DNA of 64,000 nt, from contig SHVZ01000001.1 in the NCBI GenBank assembly GCA_009694025.1, positions 1 to 64,000 on the forward strand. The letters run 5' to 3'. Every line of letters starts with the position of its first letter. Position 1 is the first letter of the stretch. Both the position numbers and the translations under genes were made by a program. The notes under the pieces were generated by a model. It was not told the origin of the DNA and ran no database searches. It worked only from the letters and a program-made list of their open reading frames with translations. This document shows positions 17,570 through 53,220 of the stretch, one piece after another. This DNA is from Alphaproteobacteria bacterium (GTDB taxonomy: Bacteria > Pseudomonadota > Alphaproteobacteria > SHVZ01).

Positions 17570-20203
17570 ATGACCGCCGCGCCGTATGCGATCCGCCGCG
17601 AAGACTACACGCCGCCGCCCTTCCTGATCGATTTCATCGACCTCAAGATCGACCTCGGCAAGGAGTCGACCGAGGTTGCCTCCCGGCTGGCCATCCGCCG
17701 CAACCCGGCAGCGGCCTCCCGGGTCGCCGACCTCGTCCTCGATGGGAAGAAGCTCGAGTTGGTCTCGGTCCTGCTCGACGACCAACCGCCGACCCACGAG
17801 GCAGGCCCGGAATCTCTGACCCTCCGCGACGTGCCCGACCGCTTCGTCCTCAACGTCACGACCCGGATCCGCCCGAAGGACAATACCGAGTTGACCGGGC
17901 TCTACGTCTCCAAAGACATGTACTGCACGCAATGCGAGGCCGAGGGTTTTCGCCGCATCACCTATTTCCTCGACCGTCCGGACGTGATGTCGCGCTACAC
18001 CACGACCATTGTCGCCGATCGAGCTGCGGTGCCGGTGCTGCTCTCCAACGGCAACCTGGTCGCCTCGGGCGACCTCGGCGAGGGCCGGCATTTCGCCAAG
18101 TGGGAGGACCCCTTCCCCAAGCCCGCATACCTTTTCGCGCTGGTCGCCGGCCCGCTCGAGCCGCTCGACGACCGCTTCGTCACCCGCTCCGGCCGCGAGG
18201 TCAGCCTGCACATCTACGTCCGTCCGGGCGACGTCAAGCGCTGCCGCCACGCCATGGACTCGCTTAAGAAGTCGATGAAGTGGGACGAGGATGTCTACGG
18301 CCTCGAATACGATCTCGACGTCTTCATGGTCGTCGCCGTCGACGACTTCAACATGGGCGCGATGGAGAACAAGGGCCTCAACATCTTTAACTCGAAGCTG
18401 GTGTTGGCCGATCCGGAGACGGCGACCGACGCCGACTACCATGCGATCGAGGCGGTGATCGCGCATGAGTATTTCCACAACTGGACCGGCAACCGGGTGA
18501 CCTGCCGGGACTGGTTCCAGCTCTCGCTCAAGGAGGGCCTGACTGTCTTCCGCGACCAACAATTCTCCGCCGACATGGGCTCGGCGGCGACCGGCCGGAT
18601 CGGCGAGGTCAAGAGCTTGAGGGCCAGCCAGTTTCCGGAAGATGCGAGTCCGATGGCGCATCCGGTGCGCCCCGACTCCTACATCGAGATCAACAATTTC
18701 TACACCGCGACCGTCTATCAGAAGGGCGCCGAGGTCGTCCGCATGCAGCACACGCTGCTCGGCCATGACGGCTTCCGCAGGGGAATGGATCTCTACATCC
18801 AGCGCCATGACGGCCAGGCGGTCACCTGCGACGACTTCGTCCAAGCGATGCAGGACGCCTCCGGCGTCGACCTCACGCAGTTCCGGCTGTGGTACGCCCA
18901 GGCGGGAACGCCGGAGCTGGAGGTCGACGGCGCCTACGACGCGGCGGCCAGGCGCTATACGATGACGGTCGGCCAGAATCTGGCGTCGGCTCCTGGCCAG
19001 CCGCACAAGAAGCCCCTGCATATCCCGCTCGCAGTCGGCCTCCTCGACCGGGCCGGGCGCGACCTGCCGCTGCGCCTCGCCGGCGAGACCGCCGCCACCG
19101 GCCTGACCCGGGTCCTCGACATCCGCGGCGAGCACGACGTCTTCACCTTCGAGGATGTGCCGGAGGCGCCGGCCGCCTCGCTGCTTCGGGGCTTCTCGGC
19201 TCCGGTCAAGCTGACCGCGCCGCGGTCTGACCAGGAGCTCACCTTCCTGATGGCCCATGACAGCGATCCGTTCGCCCGCTGGGAGGCCGGCCAGCAGCTC
19301 GCCGCCAAGCTGATCCTCGGCATGGTCGCGGATCGCAAGGCCGGGCAGCCGATGACGGTGCCCGAGGCCTTTGTCGGCGCTGTTCGCCGCACCCTCGACG
19401 ATCAGCGGCTCGACCGGGCGCTGGTCGCCGACGCCTCGACCCTGCCCGGCATCGCCTACCTCGGCGAGATGATGGCGGAGATCGACATCGACGGCCTCTG
19501 GGCCGCCCGCGAGCATCTGAGGAAGACCCTGGCGAAGCACCTTTCCGACCGCTGGGGGGGGCTCTACGAGGCCAATCGGGCGACGGGCGGCTACCGCTAC
19601 GCGGCCGAGGATGTCGGCCGCCGCAGCCTCCGCAACGTCTGCCTCTCCTATCTCACCGCCGAGGACGGGCGCGATGCGCGGCGACGCGCGGCCCTCCATT
19701 TCGAGACCGCCACCAACATGACCGACGCCGTCGCCGGGCTCGGACGCCTGACCGAGCTCGGGGGGATCGAGGGCGAAACCGCGCTCGCCCGCTTCCACGA
19801 CCGCTGGAAGGGCGAGGCCCTGGTGCTGGACAAGTGGTTCGCGATCCAGGCCTCGGCCGCGTCCGCCGACGCCCTCGACCGGGTGCGTAGACTGACCGGA
19901 CACCGGGCTTATGACGCCAGGAACCCGAACCGCATCCGCGCACTGGTCGGCACCTTCGCCAACGGCAACCCGGTCCGCTTCCACGATGTCTCCGGCGGCG
20001 GCTATCGGTTCCTTGCGGAGCAAGTGATCGCGATCGACAAGTTCAATCCGCAGGTGGCGGCCCGCCTGGTCGGCCCGCTCGGCCGCGGGCGGCGCTACGA
20101 CAAGGGCCGCCAGGCGCTGATGCGAGCCGAGCTCGAACGGATCGTCGCCGAGCCCGGCCTGTCGCGCGATGTTTTCGAGATCGCGTCCAAGAGCCTGGAC
20201 TAG
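17570..20203 (+). CDS. pepN: Aminopeptidase N (M1)
   Basis: GAMENKGLNIFN, VIAHEYFHNWTGNRVTCRDWFQLSLKEGLTVFRDQQF (HEXXH-18-E). Confidence 0.96.
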   Translation: MTAAPYAIRREDYTPPPFLIDFIDLKIDLGKESTEVASRLAIRRNPAAASRVADLVLDGKKLELVSVLLDDQPPTHEAGPESLTLRDVPDRFVLNVTTRIRPKDNTELTGLYVSKDMYCTQCEAEGFRRITYFLDRPDVMSRYTTTIVADRAAVPVLLSNGNLVASGDLGEGRHFAKWEDPFPKPAYLFALVAGPLEPLDDRFVTRSGREVSLHIYVRPGDVKRCRHAMDSLKKSMKWDEDVYGLEYDLDVFMVVAVDDFNMGAMENKGLNIFNSKLVLADPETATDADYHAIEAVIAHEYFHNWTGNRVTCRDWFQLSLKEGLTVFRDQQFSADMGSAATGRIGEVKSLRASQFPEDASPMAHPVRPDSYIEINNFYTATVYQKGAEVVRMQHTLLGHDGFRRGMDLYIQRHDGQAVTCDDFVQAMQDASGVDLTQFRLWYAQAGTPELEVDGAYDAAARRYTMTVGQNLASAPGQPHKKPLHIPLAVGLLDRAGRDLPLRLAGETAATGLTRVLDIRGEHDVFTFEDVPEAPAASLLRGFSAPVKLTAPRSDQELTFLMAHDSDPFARWEAGQQLAAKLILGMVADRKAGQPMTVPEAFVGAVRRTLDDQRLDRALVADASTLPGIAYLGEMMAEIDIDGLWAAREHLRKTLAKHLSDRWGGLYEANRATGGYRYAAEDVGRRSLRNVCLSYLTAEDGRDARRRAALHFETATNMTDAVAGLGRLTELGGIEGETALARFHDRWKGEALVLDKWFAIQASAASADALDRVRRLTGHRAYDARNPNRIRALVGTFANGNPVRFHDVSGGGYRFLAEQVIAIDKFNPQVAARLVGPLGRGRRYDKGRQALMRAELERIVAEPGLSRDVFEIASKSLD

Positions 20204-21135
20204 GGCTTGCCGCTGAAATGCCGATAGAGGCCGTCAAGAAGGGCGCCGCCTTTCTCGAGGCGGGTTTCGTCGGTGTCGTCGCCGGCGGCGATACCTGCGA
20301 AGGCGAGCGCCAGGCCGGCCGCCTCCGGGCGGCCGAACTTGCCGTCCTTCAGGTCGATGTCGTGGACGATCTCGGCAAGCGCCGTGAGCGCCAGATCGTC
20401 GCGACCGAGGCGAAGGGTCAACACCTCGAAGGTGCACCGATCGCCCTCGTGGGTGAACTCGCCGTCGTAGGTGTCGAAGCGGAGCTCCCCCGACTTCGGC
20501 GAATAGCCTTGGGGCGCGACGAACTTGAAGCGCGCCTTGGGATCGATGAACCGGCGGATCAGCCAGGCCGACGCGATGCGATCGACCTGGACGCCCCGCC
20601 GCGTCACCCACACGCGTTCGGTCAGGCCGGCGAGCGCATCGGGAACCGGTGACGGTCCGCCGCCGAGCCTCTGCTCGAGCTCGCCGAGAAGCCCATCGAC
20701 GGCCTCGCGGCCCTCGCTGCCGAAGAAGTCGATCCGACGGACCTCCTCGAAGCGCCGACGCAGCCGGGAGAGACGCCCGCGTGGGTCCTCGGCGCCCGCG
20801 TCCAGGCGCCGCGCCTCCTCGGCGATCTCGGCGTAGTCGGCGTCGCGGGCGGCGAGGAACAGGGCCCGGGCCTCGCCGTCGCCGATTCCGTCGATGAGGC
20901 GCGCCTCGCAGATCGATGCCTCACCGCCGCCCTCGACGATCTCGCGCCGGAGCCATTGCAGGTCTTCGAGCGCCTCGGCCGACGCCGGCAGGACGTAGAC
21001 CGCGTTCTTCAGCGAGACGGCGCCGATCGCTTGGAGCCGCCGCCAGGTCTTGACGCGCAGATAGGCCGGCTTCGGCGGAATCTGGTGGAACAGCAGGAGC
21101 CAGCGGAGATCCGCCGGCGGGTCGGCCTCGGGCAT
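20200..21135 (-). CDS. chrB: ChrB-type chromate resistance/regulatory protein
   Basis: Typical ChrB N- and C-terminal domains (WLLLFHQIPPKPAYLRVKTWRRLQ; WVTRRGVQVDRIASAWLIRRFIDPKARFKFV). Confidence 0.85.
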   Translation of the reverse strand: MPEADPPADLRWLLLFHQIPPKPAYLRVKTWRRLQAIGAVSLKNAVYVLPASAEALEDLQWLRREIVEGGGEASICEARLIDGIGDGEARALFLAARDADYAEIAEEARRLDAGAEDPRGRLSRLRRRFEEVRRIDFFGSEGREAVDGLLGELEQRLGGGPSPVPDALAGLTERVWVTRRGVQVDRIASAWLIRRFIDPKARFKFVAPQGYSPKSGELRFDTYDGEFTHEGDRCTFEVLTLRLGRDDLALTALAEIVHDIDLKDGKFGRPEAAGLALAFAGIAAGDDTDETRLEKGGALLDGLYRHFSGKP

Positions 21136-21208
21136 GGTGCCATTATAAGAGAAGCGTGGATGAAAGATACACTTGTATCTTGCGAGATACGTGTGCTATA
21201 TAGACGCC
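21136..21208. promoter_or_regulatory. Divergent chrB/chrC promoter region with palindrome AGATACA-CT-TGTATCT (21165-21180) and a third AGATAC (21185-21190)
   Basis: + strand: TTGTAT (21173-21178) - 18 - TATATA (21197-21202), 6 bp before ATG 21209. - strand: GTATCT - 17 - TATAAT (21147-21142), 6 bp before ATG 21135. Confidence 0.6.
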
Positions 21209-22129
21209 ATGACACACGCCATTACCCCCCTCGCCTTCAAGCCGAGCCGCCTCGACGGCCTCTCGGCCAAGCTGGTCTCTAGCCATTACGTCAACAACTA
21301 CGGCGGCGCGGTCCGTCGGCTGAACGCGATCGAGGCGAGGCTCGCGGCCCTCGATCTCGCCGCCGAACCCGGCTTTGTCGTCAACGGCATCGCTCGCGAG
21401 GCGCTGATCGCCCACAACTCGATGGTGCTGCATGAGGTGCATTTCGACGGGCTCGGCGGCACCGGCGCCCCGGGAGGAGCGGTCGCCGACGCACTCGCCC
21501 GCGACTTCCAGGGTGTGGAGCGCTGGCAGCGCGCCTTTGCCGCCATGGGCAAGGCGCTCGCCGGCGGCTCCGGATGGGTGATCCTCGCCTGGTCGCGGCG
21601 GGCAAACCGCCTGGTGAACCAATGGGCCGCCGATCATGCGCACGTGTTGGCCGATGCCGAGCCGATCCTGGCCCTCGACATGTACGAGCACGCCTATCAC
21701 CAGGACTTCGGCGCCGACGCCGGGCGCTATGTCGACACGGTCCTGCGCAACCTGCATTGGGGCCGGATCTCCGCTCGCTACGAGATGGCCCGCGCGCGGC
21801 GTACCGTGTCGCCTGCCGCTGCCGGCGTGCCCGTCGAGGCGGTCCTCGCCGATCGCGAATCGGTTCTGCTCGTCGACGTCCGCCTTCCCGACGACTACGC
21901 CGCCTCGGGCCTCCGCATGCCCGGTGTCGCCTGGCACGATCCGAGCAGGGTCGAAGAGTGGGGCCGGCACCTCTCGCGCGGTCGCCGGGTGGTCGTCTCC
22001 TGCGTCTACGGCTTCGAGGTCAGCCTCGAAGCCGCCGCCGCGCTCCGGCGCCTTGGATTCGATGCCGACATCCTGTCTGGAGGCCTCGCCGCCTGGCGGG
22101 CCGCCGGTGGCCCGGTCGAACCGATCTGA
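21209..22129 (+). CDS. chrC: ChrC-like Fe/Mn superoxide dismutase fused to C-terminal rhodanese domain
   Basis: SHYVNNYGGAVRRLN, LHEVHFDGLGG, LALDMYEHAYHQDFG (SOD ligands); C-terminal LLVDVRLPDDY...VVVSCVYGFEVS...GGLAAWRAAGGPVEP (rhodanese). Confidence 0.85.
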   Translation: MTHAITPLAFKPSRLDGLSAKLVSSHYVNNYGGAVRRLNAIEARLAALDLAAEPGFVVNGIAREALIAHNSMVLHEVHFDGLGGTGAPGGAVADALARDFQGVERWQRAFAAMGKALAGGSGWVILAWSRRANRLVNQWAADHAHVLADAEPILALDMYEHAYHQDFGADAGRYVDTVLRNLHWGRISARYEMARARRTVSPAAAGVPVEAVLADRESVLLVDVRLPDDYAASGLRMPGVAWHDPSRVEEWGRHLSRGRRVVVSCVYGFEVSLEAAAALRRLGFDADILSGGLAAWRAAGGPVEPI

Positions 22130-22147: not shown

Positions 22148-22600
22148 ATGAAATGGATCACCCGCGAACGACCCAAGATCGACCGTATCGCCTGTCCATG
22201 GCTGGTCGAGCGCTTCATCGACAGGGAAGCGGAGTTCCTCTACGTGCCCGCGAACCAGGTCCGGACCATCGCGGCCGAAACCGGCGCCATCCCCTACGAT
22301 GTGCCCGACGTCGAGCTCAGCCACGTCGGTCCGCTCTGCAGCTTCGATGCCTTCCTCGAGAAGTACCGGCTCTACGACCCGGCGCTTCAGGATCTCGCCG
22401 TCATCGTCCGCGGCGCCGACACGGGCCATCCGGAGCTGTCACCGCAGTCGCCGGGGTTGCTTGCCGTCTCGCTCGGCCTCTCCCGCGTCTTCTCCGACGA
22501 TCACGAAATGCTTCGCCACGGCATGGTTCTCTATGATGCGCTCTATGCCTGGTGCCGCGAAGGACGAGGAGAAACCCATGGCTGGCCGCCCGCCGCATGA
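22148..22600 (+). CDS. Stand-alone ChrB C-terminal domain protein
   Basis: MKWITRERPKIDRIACPWLVERFIDREAEFLYVP; same signature as the C-terminal half of ChrB; inside the chr locus. Confidence 0.85.
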   Translation: MKWITRERPKIDRIACPWLVERFIDREAEFLYVPANQVRTIAAETGAIPYDVPDVELSHVGPLCSFDAFLEKYRLYDPALQDLAVIVRGADTGHPELSPQSPGLLAVSLGLSRVFSDDHEMLRHGMVLYDALYAWCREGRGETHGWPPAA

Positions 22601-23931
22601 CCAAACCTAGCTTCGGAGAGGCCTTCCGCCTCTGGGCCAAGCTCGGCTTCATCAATTTCGGCGGGCCTGCCGCCCAGATCGCGATGATGCACCGGATGCT
22701 GGTCGACGAGCGGCGCTGGGTCGGGGAGACCCGGTTCCTGCACGCCCTCAACTACTGCACGCTGCTGCCGGGGCCCGAGGCCCAGCAGCTCGCCACCTAC
22801 ATCGGCTGGCTCCTGCACCGGACCTTGGGCGGCATCGTCGCAGGCTCGATGTTCATTCTGCCGGGCTTCCTCTGCGTCATGGCGTTGTCCTGGCTCTATG
22901 CCGTCCATGGCGACGTTCCGCTCGTCTCCGCGCTCTTCTATGGCCTCCAAGCAGCGATCCTCGCCATCGTCTTCCAGGCGGTGGTCCGCATCGGCAAGCG
23001 CGCGCTCGGGAATCGGGCGATGGTGACGCTGGCGGCGCTCGCCTTCGTCGCCCTGTTCTTCCTTCAGGTGCCATTCCCGCTGGTGGTAGGCACCGCCGCC
23101 GCCGCGGGATTCCTTGGTCATCGCTTCGCGCCCGAGCTGTTCAAAGGATCTGGGCACGGCGGCGGCGGCGGCGCTGCCGACAAAGTGCTCGAGGACGGTG
23201 CCGACCATCTGACCCCGAGCACTGGCCATACCGTCGCCGTCGCCCTTATCGGAGGCGCTCTCTGGCTCGGCCCGGTCGCTATCCTGTGGATCATCTTCGG
23301 CTGGCAGTCGACCTGGACCCAGCTTGGCGTGTTCTTCTCGGAAATGGCGGTGGTGACCTTCGGCGGCGCCTATGCCGTCCTCGCTTATGTCGCTCAGGAG
23401 GCGGTCAACCAATACGGCTGGCTCGAGCCGGAGGAGATGCTGTCCGGCCTGGCGCTCGCCGAGACGACGCCGGGCCCGCTGATCCTGGTCGTCCAGTTCG
23501 TCGGGTTTCTCGCCGGATATCGCGACCCAGGCACCCTCGACCCGAGCCTTGCCGGCGCGCTGGCGGCGACGCTGGTCGTCTGGGTCACCTTCGTTCCGTC
23601 GTTTCTCTGGATCCTGGTCGGCGCGCCCTACATCGAGCGGCTGCGCGGGCTCCCTCGGCTCGATGCGGCGCTGACCGCGATCACCGCGGCGATCGTCGGC
23701 GTCATCCTCAACCTCGCCATCTGGTTCGCCCTCCATGTCGTCTTCGCCGAGGTGCGGTTCGTCGACATCGGCTGGATCCATCTGCCGCGGCCGAACTGGG
23801 CGACCCTCGACCCGGCGGCGGTCACACTCGCGCTCGCCTCGGCGATTGCCTTGTTCCGCTTCAACCGCGGCGTCGTGGAGACGCTGGCGGGAGCCGCCGT
23901 CCTCGGGATGGCGTGGCGCCTGCTGGTCTAG
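22597..23931 (+). CDS. chrA: Chromate transporter ChrA
   Basis: FGEAFRLWAKLGFINFGGPAAQIAMMHRMLVDERRWV...LPGPEAQQLATYIGWLLHR...FGGAYAVLAYVAQEAV; 4-nt overlap with upstream gene. Confidence 0.93.
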   Translation: MTKPSFGEAFRLWAKLGFINFGGPAAQIAMMHRMLVDERRWVGETRFLHALNYCTLLPGPEAQQLATYIGWLLHRTLGGIVAGSMFILPGFLCVMALSWLYAVHGDVPLVSALFYGLQAAILAIVFQAVVRIGKRALGNRAMVTLAALAFVALFFLQVPFPLVVGTAAAAGFLGHRFAPELFKGSGHGGGGGAADKVLEDGADHLTPSTGHTVAVALIGGALWLGPVAILWIIFGWQSTWTQLGVFFSEMAVVTFGGAYAVLAYVAQEAVNQYGWLEPEEMLSGLALAETTPGPLILVVQFVGFLAGYRDPGTLDPSLAGALAATLVVWVTFVPSFLWILVGAPYIERLRGLPRLDAALTAITAAIVGVILNLAIWFALHVVFAEVRFVDIGWIHLPRPNWATLDPAAVTLALASAIALFRFNRGVVETLAGAAVLGMAWRLLV

Positions 23932-50795: not shown

Positions 50796-51737
<942 letters not shown>

Positions 51738-51750
51738 TTCGGACCGCCGC

Positions 51751-53220
51751 ATGACCGAACGCTCCGACCTCGCCCAGCGCGTCGCCGATTTCGCCAAGGC
51801 GCGGATCCTCTGTGTCGGCGACGTCATGCTCGACCGCTATATATACGGAACGGTCGACCGCATCTCGCCGGAGGCCCCGATCCCCATCCTCTCGGTCACC
51901 CGCGAGATGGCGATGCTCGGCGGCGCCGGCAACGTCGTCCGCAACCTCGCCGCGCTGAAAGCGAGCTGCTGCTTCGTCTCGCTGATCGGCGAGGACCCGG
52001 CGGGACGCGAAGTGACGCAGCTGATCGCGGCGGAACCCTCGGTCGAGCCCAACCTGCTGCCCGAGCCCGACCGGGTCACCACCATCAAGGTCCGCTACGT
52101 TGCAGGATCCCAGCAATTGCTTCGCGCCGACCGCGAGACCGTCCGGCCGGCCAAGCCGACGACCGAGTCCGAGCTGGTCCGCCGCGCCGGTGACGACCTC
52201 AAGCACTGCCAGTCCGTCGTCCTCTCCGACTACGGCAAGGGCGTCTTGTCCGATGACGTCATCGGCCGGATCATCGCCGCCGCCCGGGCCCAAGGCCGCC
52301 CGGTGGTGGTCGATCCGCGCGGCAACGACCCCCGTCGCTATGCCGGAGCCACCGTCATCACGCCGAACCGCCGCGAGCTCGGCGAGCTTGCCGGACGGCG
52401 CATCGGCACCGCCGACCAGATCCGCGAGGCGGCCCACGAGGTCATGGGCCAGGGCGCCATCGAAGCGGTCCTGGTGACGCTGAGCCAGGACGGCATGGCC
52501 CTGTTCACCGCGTCGGGCGAGGAGCATCATTTCCGCGCCGAGGCGCTCGAGGTCTACGATGTGTCCGGCGCCGGCGACACGGTGGTGGCAGTCGTCGCCT
52601 GCGCGCTCGCCTCCGGCCTCTCCCTCGCCGACGCGGCACGGCTCGCCTCGGTCGCCGCCGGGATCGTCGTCGGCAAGATCGGTACCGCGGTGGTCCACCC
52701 GGAGGAGCTGGTCTTCGCGCTCCGCGCCGAGGACCTGAGATTCAGCGAGGCCAAGGCCGCGACCATGGAGCAGGCGCTGGAGCGGGTCGCGACCTGGCGC
52801 CGCCAGGGCTTTCGGATCGGCTTCACCAACGGCTGCTTCGACCTGCTCCATCCCGGCCACGTGTCGCTGTTGGGCCAGGCGCGCACCCGCTGCGACAAGT
52901 TGATCGTCGGCCTCAATTCCGATGCGTCGGTGGCGCGCCTCAAAGGACCGGACCGGCCGGTACAGTCGGAGGCGGCCCGCGCCGCCGTGCTGGGATCGCT
53001 CGCCAGTGTCGATCTCGTCGTCGTCTTCGGCGAGGACACCCCGCTCGAGATCATCCGGGCGCTCAAGCCCGACCTGCTGGTCAAGGGCGCCGACTACACC
53101 GTCGACGCGGTGGTCGGCGCCGACGTGGTCCAGGCCTATGGCGGTCAGGTGTATCTGGCCGAACTCGCGGAGGGCCATTCGACCAGCAACGTCATCCGCC
53201 GGATGGCGGGCAAGGGCTAG
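51751..53220 (+). CDS. hldE: Bifunctional heptose 7-phosphate kinase / 1-phosphate adenylyltransferase
   Basis: ILCVGDVMLDRYIYGTVDRISPEAPIPIL...VSGAGDTVVAV...GFTNGCFDLLHPGHVSLL. Confidence 0.94.
   Translation: MTERSDLAQRVADFAKARILCVGDVMLDRYIYGTVDRISPEAPIPILSVTREMAMLGGAGNVVRNLAALKASCCFVSLIGEDPAGREVTQLIAAEPSVEPNLLPEPDRVTTIKVRYVAGSQQLLRADRETVRPAKPTTESELVRRAGDDLKHCQSVVLSDYGKGVLSDDVIGRIIAAARAQGRPVVVDPRGNDPRRYAGATVITPNRRELGELAGRRIGTADQIREAAHEVMGQGAIEAVLVTLSQDGMALFTASGEEHHFRAEALEVYDVSGAGDTVVAVVACALASGLSLADAARLASVAAGIVVGKIGTAVVHPEELVFALRAEDLRFSEAKAATMEQALERVATWRRQGFRIGFTNGCFDLLHPGHVSLLGQARTRCDKLIVGLNSDASVARLKGPDRPVQSEAARAAVLGSLASVDLVVVFGEDTPLEIIRALKPDLLVKGADYTVDAVVGADVVQAYGGQVYLAELAEGHSTSNVIRRMAGKG

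Follow-up and report, generated by a model that had tools for sequence, protein, structure and literature searches.

How can two oppositely facing genes, chrB and chrC, be transcribed and regulated from a 73-bp gap (21136-21208) in which a -10 box stands six nucleotides before each start codon? The question is raised by a locus within the window, by which we mean the whole 64,000-nucleotide stretch of alphaproteobacterial DNA analysed here. The explanation that we favour as a whole, and regard as highly probable, is that this gap controls a chromate-resistance locus at which ChrB would repress a divergent gene pair, chromate would relieve that repression and both messages would be leaderless.

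Organisation of the locus

The genes on either side of the gap are:

20200-21135, minus strand: chrB, a regulator of 311 aa with ChrB_N and ChrB_C domains (Pfam)
21209-22129, plus strand: chrC, 306 aa, with an Fe/Mn superoxide dismutase C-terminal domain and a rhodanese domain (Pfam, NCBIfam)
22148-22600, plus strand: a stand-alone ChrB_C domain protein, downstream of chrC (Pfam)
22552-23931, plus strand: the chrA chromate efflux transporter ORF (Pfam, NCBIfam)

ChrB scored 51.6 bits for PF20229 (cut-off 23) and 146.3 bits for PF09828 (cut-off 25) in Pfam, and the NCBIfam search gave no match to a ChrB model for this protein. The linked chrA scored 241.8 bits for Chromate_transp over 22552-23931 and matched TIGR00937 in NCBIfam; on inspection, its true start is probably the ATG at 22597, which overlaps the preceding stop. 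The chrB ATG at 21135 is the sole in-frame start between the preceding stop and the conserved W12, with M1 aligned in all orthologues, and the position of the chrC ATG is conserved in relatives.

Two smaller features of these genes can be recorded here. An ATGA at 22597-22600 probably joins the end of the ChrB_C-like gene to the start of chrA, an overlap that suggests translational coupling. The rhodanese domain of chrC is ChrE-like and is fused here to the superoxide dismutase domain; in one relative (G050, locus L089) the rhodanese part alone seems to lie beside chrB.

Predicted promoters in the chrB/chrC gap

The signals recognised in the gap are:

21142-21147, minus strand: chrB -10 box TATAAT, six nucleotides (GGCACC) from the ATG at 21135, its position conserved in orthologues
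21165-21170, minus strand: chrB -35 region GTATCT, a weak match within the palindrome, 17 bp from the -10 box
21165-21180, no strand: palindromic operator AGATACACTTGTATCT (arms AGATACA and TGTATCT around CT), a predicted ChrB dimer site over both -35 regions
21173-21178, plus strand: chrC -35 region TTGTAT, a weak match that overlaps the palindrome's right arm, 18 bp from the -10 box
21185-21190, plus strand: AGATAC, a third half-site lying 20 bp beyond the first, its GATAC core conserved in the related loci L001 and L002
21197-21202, plus strand: chrC -10 box TATATA with an extended -10 TGC (21194-21196), six nucleotides (GACGCC) from the ATG at 21209

The original prediction had described a leaderless promoter pair around a palindromic operator, and on re-reading the sequence its boxes, spacings, palindrome and coordinates all proved correct, including -10 boxes that end exactly 6 bp before each ATG; inspection likewise found no Shine-Dalgarno before the chrB or chrC start. 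The solid part of the promoter evidence is this -10/ATG spacing and not the -35 regions, whose identity to TTGACA is poor (2/6 for GTATCT, 3/6 for TTGTAT). Because both -35 regions are weak, a strict sigma-70 scan of the window called neither promoter. The chrC TATATA is a 4/6 match to a -10 box, aided by the extended -10 TGC, and chrB orthologues carry a TTGCAT-like sequence at the position of GTATCT. When the same 73 bp were shuffled, both -10 boxes fell at their observed positions in 0.025% of shuffles, and a palindrome with 7-bp arms (gap 0-6) arose in 1.6%. Folding of the 5' ends gave z-scores of -1.9 for chrB and -1.0 for chrC, which do not form a consistent picture.

A measured counterpart to this spacing is found in Cupriavidus metallidurans, where start sites mapped with a clustering window of 5 bp include TSS_52146 and TSS_410991, listed as '0 bp upstr.' of chrB1 and of chrB2 respectively (PMC9045368). 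As the chrB1 coding sequence on pMOL28 occupies 51172-52146 on the minus strand, TSS_52146 is the A of its ATG, within the 5-bp clustering. Upstream of chrB1 lies TGTAGAGATCTCTACA, followed by TTGAAG-17-TAAGCT-gtctgc-ATG, and upstream of chrB2, read from another strain of the species, TTGCAA-17-TATGCT-gccttc-ATG. Both genes combine the 6-nt spacing of the window with a mapped 0-bp start, so this spacing predicts a measured start, and we infer that transcription of chrB and chrC in the window begins at the A of each ATG or right beside it. The likeness extends to a palindrome upstream near the -35 region, but the C. metallidurans operator is GTAGAG-type whereas that of the window is GATACA-type, and the divergent gene near chrB1 is chrI rather than chrC. 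Our literature search on ChrB and leaderless messages found only this start-site paper, which tabulates the chrB starts and does not discuss leaderlessness.

Predicted leaderless starts among relatives

We collected 80 chrB loci from public genomes and assigned their starts by a rule blind to promoters, taking the in-frame ATG closest to the conserved W-L-L-L motif on its upstream side. Dereplicating the loci at 80% identity over the upstream 60 bp left 54. In 22 of these 54 upstream regions a TAnnnT starts at exactly -12; the other offsets average 0.98 and none exceeds 4, the counts being dereplicated with kinship ignored. As a background from the window's own genome, the same motif stands at this position before 3 of 317 gene starts, placed roughly (5'-most ATG) in 400 kb of its contigs. 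A held-out set of distant ChrB proteins, for which the motif filter missed many loci, gave a weaker signal that is still present: 6 of 24 have it at -13/-12, compared with about 0.8 per offset. Exceptions to the rule exist, since chrB in L074/L166 has an SD-bearing AGGAGG leader; in some gamma-type chrB genes the -10 box lies at 7 nt and a GTAG...CTAC operator reaches the ATG.

Among 32 dereplicated divergent chrC/chrB pairs, a Shine-Dalgarno-like motif precedes chrC in 30 and chrB in 1; the window itself, where neither gene has one, is outside this count. The match in L002, counted among the 30, falls within the operator by chance, and the one before chrB (L066) results from the start rule picking a downstream GTG. 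The missing Shine-Dalgarno is therefore specific to chrB and not a habit of these genomes, and for the same reason leaderless chrB looks ancestral, old and widespread in Proteobacteria.

The chrC side has a narrower distribution. Its leaderless anatomy is present in three sequences only, those of the window, L001 (L085 seems to be this locus too) and L002, and elsewhere among relatives chrC has a leader with a Shine-Dalgarno-like motif. In L001 and L002 the chrC -10 box is TATAAG, at 6 and 5 nt from the ATG respectively; the gap measures 70-73 bp in the three sequences as opposed to mostly 91-128 bp in other divergent pairs, and all three have the third half-site, at the same 20-bp distance towards chrC. 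Leaderless chrC, seen only in these three, is probably of recent origin in the window's clade, whose gap has become shorter. Of the leaderless pair as originally predicted, the chrB part is supported by the recurrence of a -10 box six nucleotides before the ATG and by the 0-bp starts of C. metallidurans; the chrC part is limited to the closest relatives.

L002 belongs to a MAG labelled Burkholderiales, and its ChrB is 78% identical to that of the window, with the same leaderless pair; this mismatch of label and locus would reflect either mis-binning or horizontal transfer.

The predicted GATAC operator

Across the 3.28-Mb assembly of the window's genome the exact 16-bp palindrome is found a single time, and matches with two mismatches are at about the level of a reversed-pattern control; with up to three mismatches, 0.20 matches are expected per window. 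The palindrome, the third half-site and both -10 boxes are kept in L001 and L002. GATAC is found at -44 and -14 in many alphaproteobacterial chrB upstream regions, most of which read TGATACAAGTGTTGCATTT, about 11 bp, TGATACGGT, 6 nt and ATG, the element at -44 lying over the -35 region and that at -14 making an extended -10 (TGA-TACGGT). At the same -44 position the window has GATACA-AG-TGTATC (chrB strand), as a perfect palindrome. The original prediction had staked itself on conservation of the palindrome beside chrB orthologues, and a GATAC operator at -44, together with the -10 box six nucleotides before the ATG, does recur across Alphaproteobacteria. L089/L171 differ in that a perfect GATACATATGTATC lies directly against the ATG, and TACATA again ends 6 nt before it. 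From such comparisons the GATAC elements appear to be ChrB half-sites.

Beta- and gammaproteobacterial chrB promoters (L105, L106, L107, L112, L152) carry a GTAGAG-AT-CTCTAC-type palindrome and not GATACA-NN-TGTATC, which suggests that ChrB may have two operator codes.

Conserved residues and predicted fold of ChrB

The ChrB of O. tritici binds its own promoter in EMSA and controls it in response to chromate, R18A and R23A leading to constitutive expression and R180A, R187A and H229A blocking induction (PMC3817168). These residues correspond to R27, R32, R179, R186 and H229 of the window protein, all five of which are kept and are invariant across 31 orthologues; the mapping used Klebsiella ChrB as a ruler in place of the O. 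tritici sequence itself, and the Klebsiella protein has the expected R, H or C at each checked position where an R, H or C was mutated in O. tritici. The window ChrB thus retains the residues needed in O. tritici for control at the DNA (R18, R23) and for the chromate response (R180, R187, H229). Autoregulation of chrB, as predicted for the window, agrees both with the O. tritici work (PMC3817168) and with the conserved functional residues. The window resembles the chrB-led operon of TnOtChr in these DNA-contact and chromate-sensing residues (PMC3817168), in an operator close to the chrB start and in autoregulation, which is predicted for the window. Unlike the window, with its divergent pair and GATAC palindrome over both -35 regions, O. 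tritici has a different operator sequence and a chrB-chrA-chrC-chrF determinant. The O. tritici operator is itself not fully settled, because ChrB still bound a mutated inverted repeat by EMSA (PMC3817168).

Within an AlphaFold2 model of ChrB (mean pLDDT 83.8, pTM 0.51), residues 12-78 form a beta-alpha-beta-beta-alpha-beta unit, with R27 and R32 on its first helix (24-36). The best Foldseek match to the model was E. coli PaaX (E 0.007, probability 1.00), followed by many Cas2 proteins with TM-scores by target of about 0.5-0.6. At E<=0.1 the Pfam PaaX_M 'central Cas2-like domain' matched 24 of 31 ChrB proteins, with 4e-6 as the best value, and the match of the window ChrB fell below the curated cut-off. 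Pfam gave no helix-turn-helix family for ChrB at E<=10, the modelled N-terminus shows no recognisable helix-turn-helix or winged helix, and sequence searches of the PDB with ChrB and with a ChrB profile returned no relatives. The N-terminal domain therefore looks Cas2/PaaX-like, the modest Foldseek E-values making this a lead and not proof, and it raises the question of how ChrB reads DNA. No published link of ChrB or PaaX to Cas2 was found in the freely accessible literature searched, a weak sign of novelty.

Discussion

In the mechanism that we favour, ChrB would be made from a leaderless message and would bind the palindrome as a dimer, probably engaging the third half-site as well. Bound ChrB would keep RNA polymerase from both of the overlapping -35 regions and so shut off chrB as well as the divergent chrC-chrB_C-chrA operon, until chromate binding to the ChrB_C domain relieved the repression. 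Transcripts would then begin at, or immediately beside, the A of the two ATG codons, and chrB and chrC would be translated by ribosomes without a Shine-Dalgarno. That the dimer binds the window palindrome and represses both promoters simultaneously is what we infer from the arrangement. More tentatively, and with rather less than even confidence, we suggest that ChrB might be a sequence-specific repressor whose dimer reads the palindrome with a Cas2-like ferredoxin fold, the one seen in the middle domain of PaaX, though with no winged helix, and that across Proteobacteria its message might be ancestrally leaderless, with the start codon tied to the operator-promoter.

It seems unlikely that chrB alone is leaderless and that chrC is expressed from an upstream in-frame start (TTG 21173 or GTG 21191) or a longer transcript. 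These codons do exist upstream of the chrC ATG, the chrC of most relatives is leadered with an SD-like motif, and TATATA is an imperfect -10 box; but the upstream starts lie within the operator/promoter, have no SD and are not kept in L001 or L002, whereas the chrC ATG aligns in relatives and the -10 box at 5-6 nt is conserved in the clade. The palindrome could also serve another regulator, with ChrB acting elsewhere, for example at the -10 region, which is the site proposed for O. tritici. In that species the inverted repeat (-37 to -4) differs in sequence and was still bound when mutated (PMC3817168), and many relatives have a second GATAC at the -10, both of which would fit this reading. 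We nevertheless hold it to be decidedly unlikely, as GATAC sites occupy a fixed position at the chrB promoters of many genera, the exact palindrome is unique in its own genome and no other regulator gene was recognised in the 16.5-25 kb part of the window. Very improbable, in our view, are short real leaders, with starts a few nucleotides upstream of the ATG and messages that are not strictly leaderless: start-site choice does vary by a few nucleotides and gamma-type chrB has its -10 box at 7 nt, but the C. metallidurans starts were mapped at 0 bp and short leaders would leave no room for an SD anyway.

A leaderless, ChrB-repressed divergent pair would have known relatives, since an autoregulated repressor gene comes first in a leaderless transcript in both Rhodobacter acuR-acuI-dddL (PMC3017554) and Mesorhizobium nreAXY, where nreA is another metal-responsive repressor with its operator inside the promoter (PMC12724321). 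Those regulators are of the TetR and CsoR/RcnR types, unlike ChrB, and their leaderless promoters are described as single and not divergent. Because acuR and nreA are leaderless repressor genes, operons of this kind are already known; what is new is the predicted family-wide leaderless chrB and two-sided leaderless pair. The family-wide rule would be that the gene for the chromate-resistance sensor starts transcription at its start codon, the divergent resistance gene in most relatives being normally leadered. The leaderless repressor gene of the acuR operon is poorly translated (PMC3017554), and a leaderless chrB would likewise hold ChrB at a low level compared with the resistance proteins, an effect measured for acuR. 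With the operator sequences, ChrB sites can be sought elsewhere and chromate biosensors designed, and the window's clade offers a natural experiment in which the partner gene, chrC, seems to have lost its leader too.

A further arrangement occurs in the same genus, where in L003 (=L086; 1-313) an ORF resembling a transposase C-terminus stops some 34 bp before chrB. This locus has lost the palindrome and kept TATAAT-6 nt-ATG, so that its chrB may have escaped its operator.
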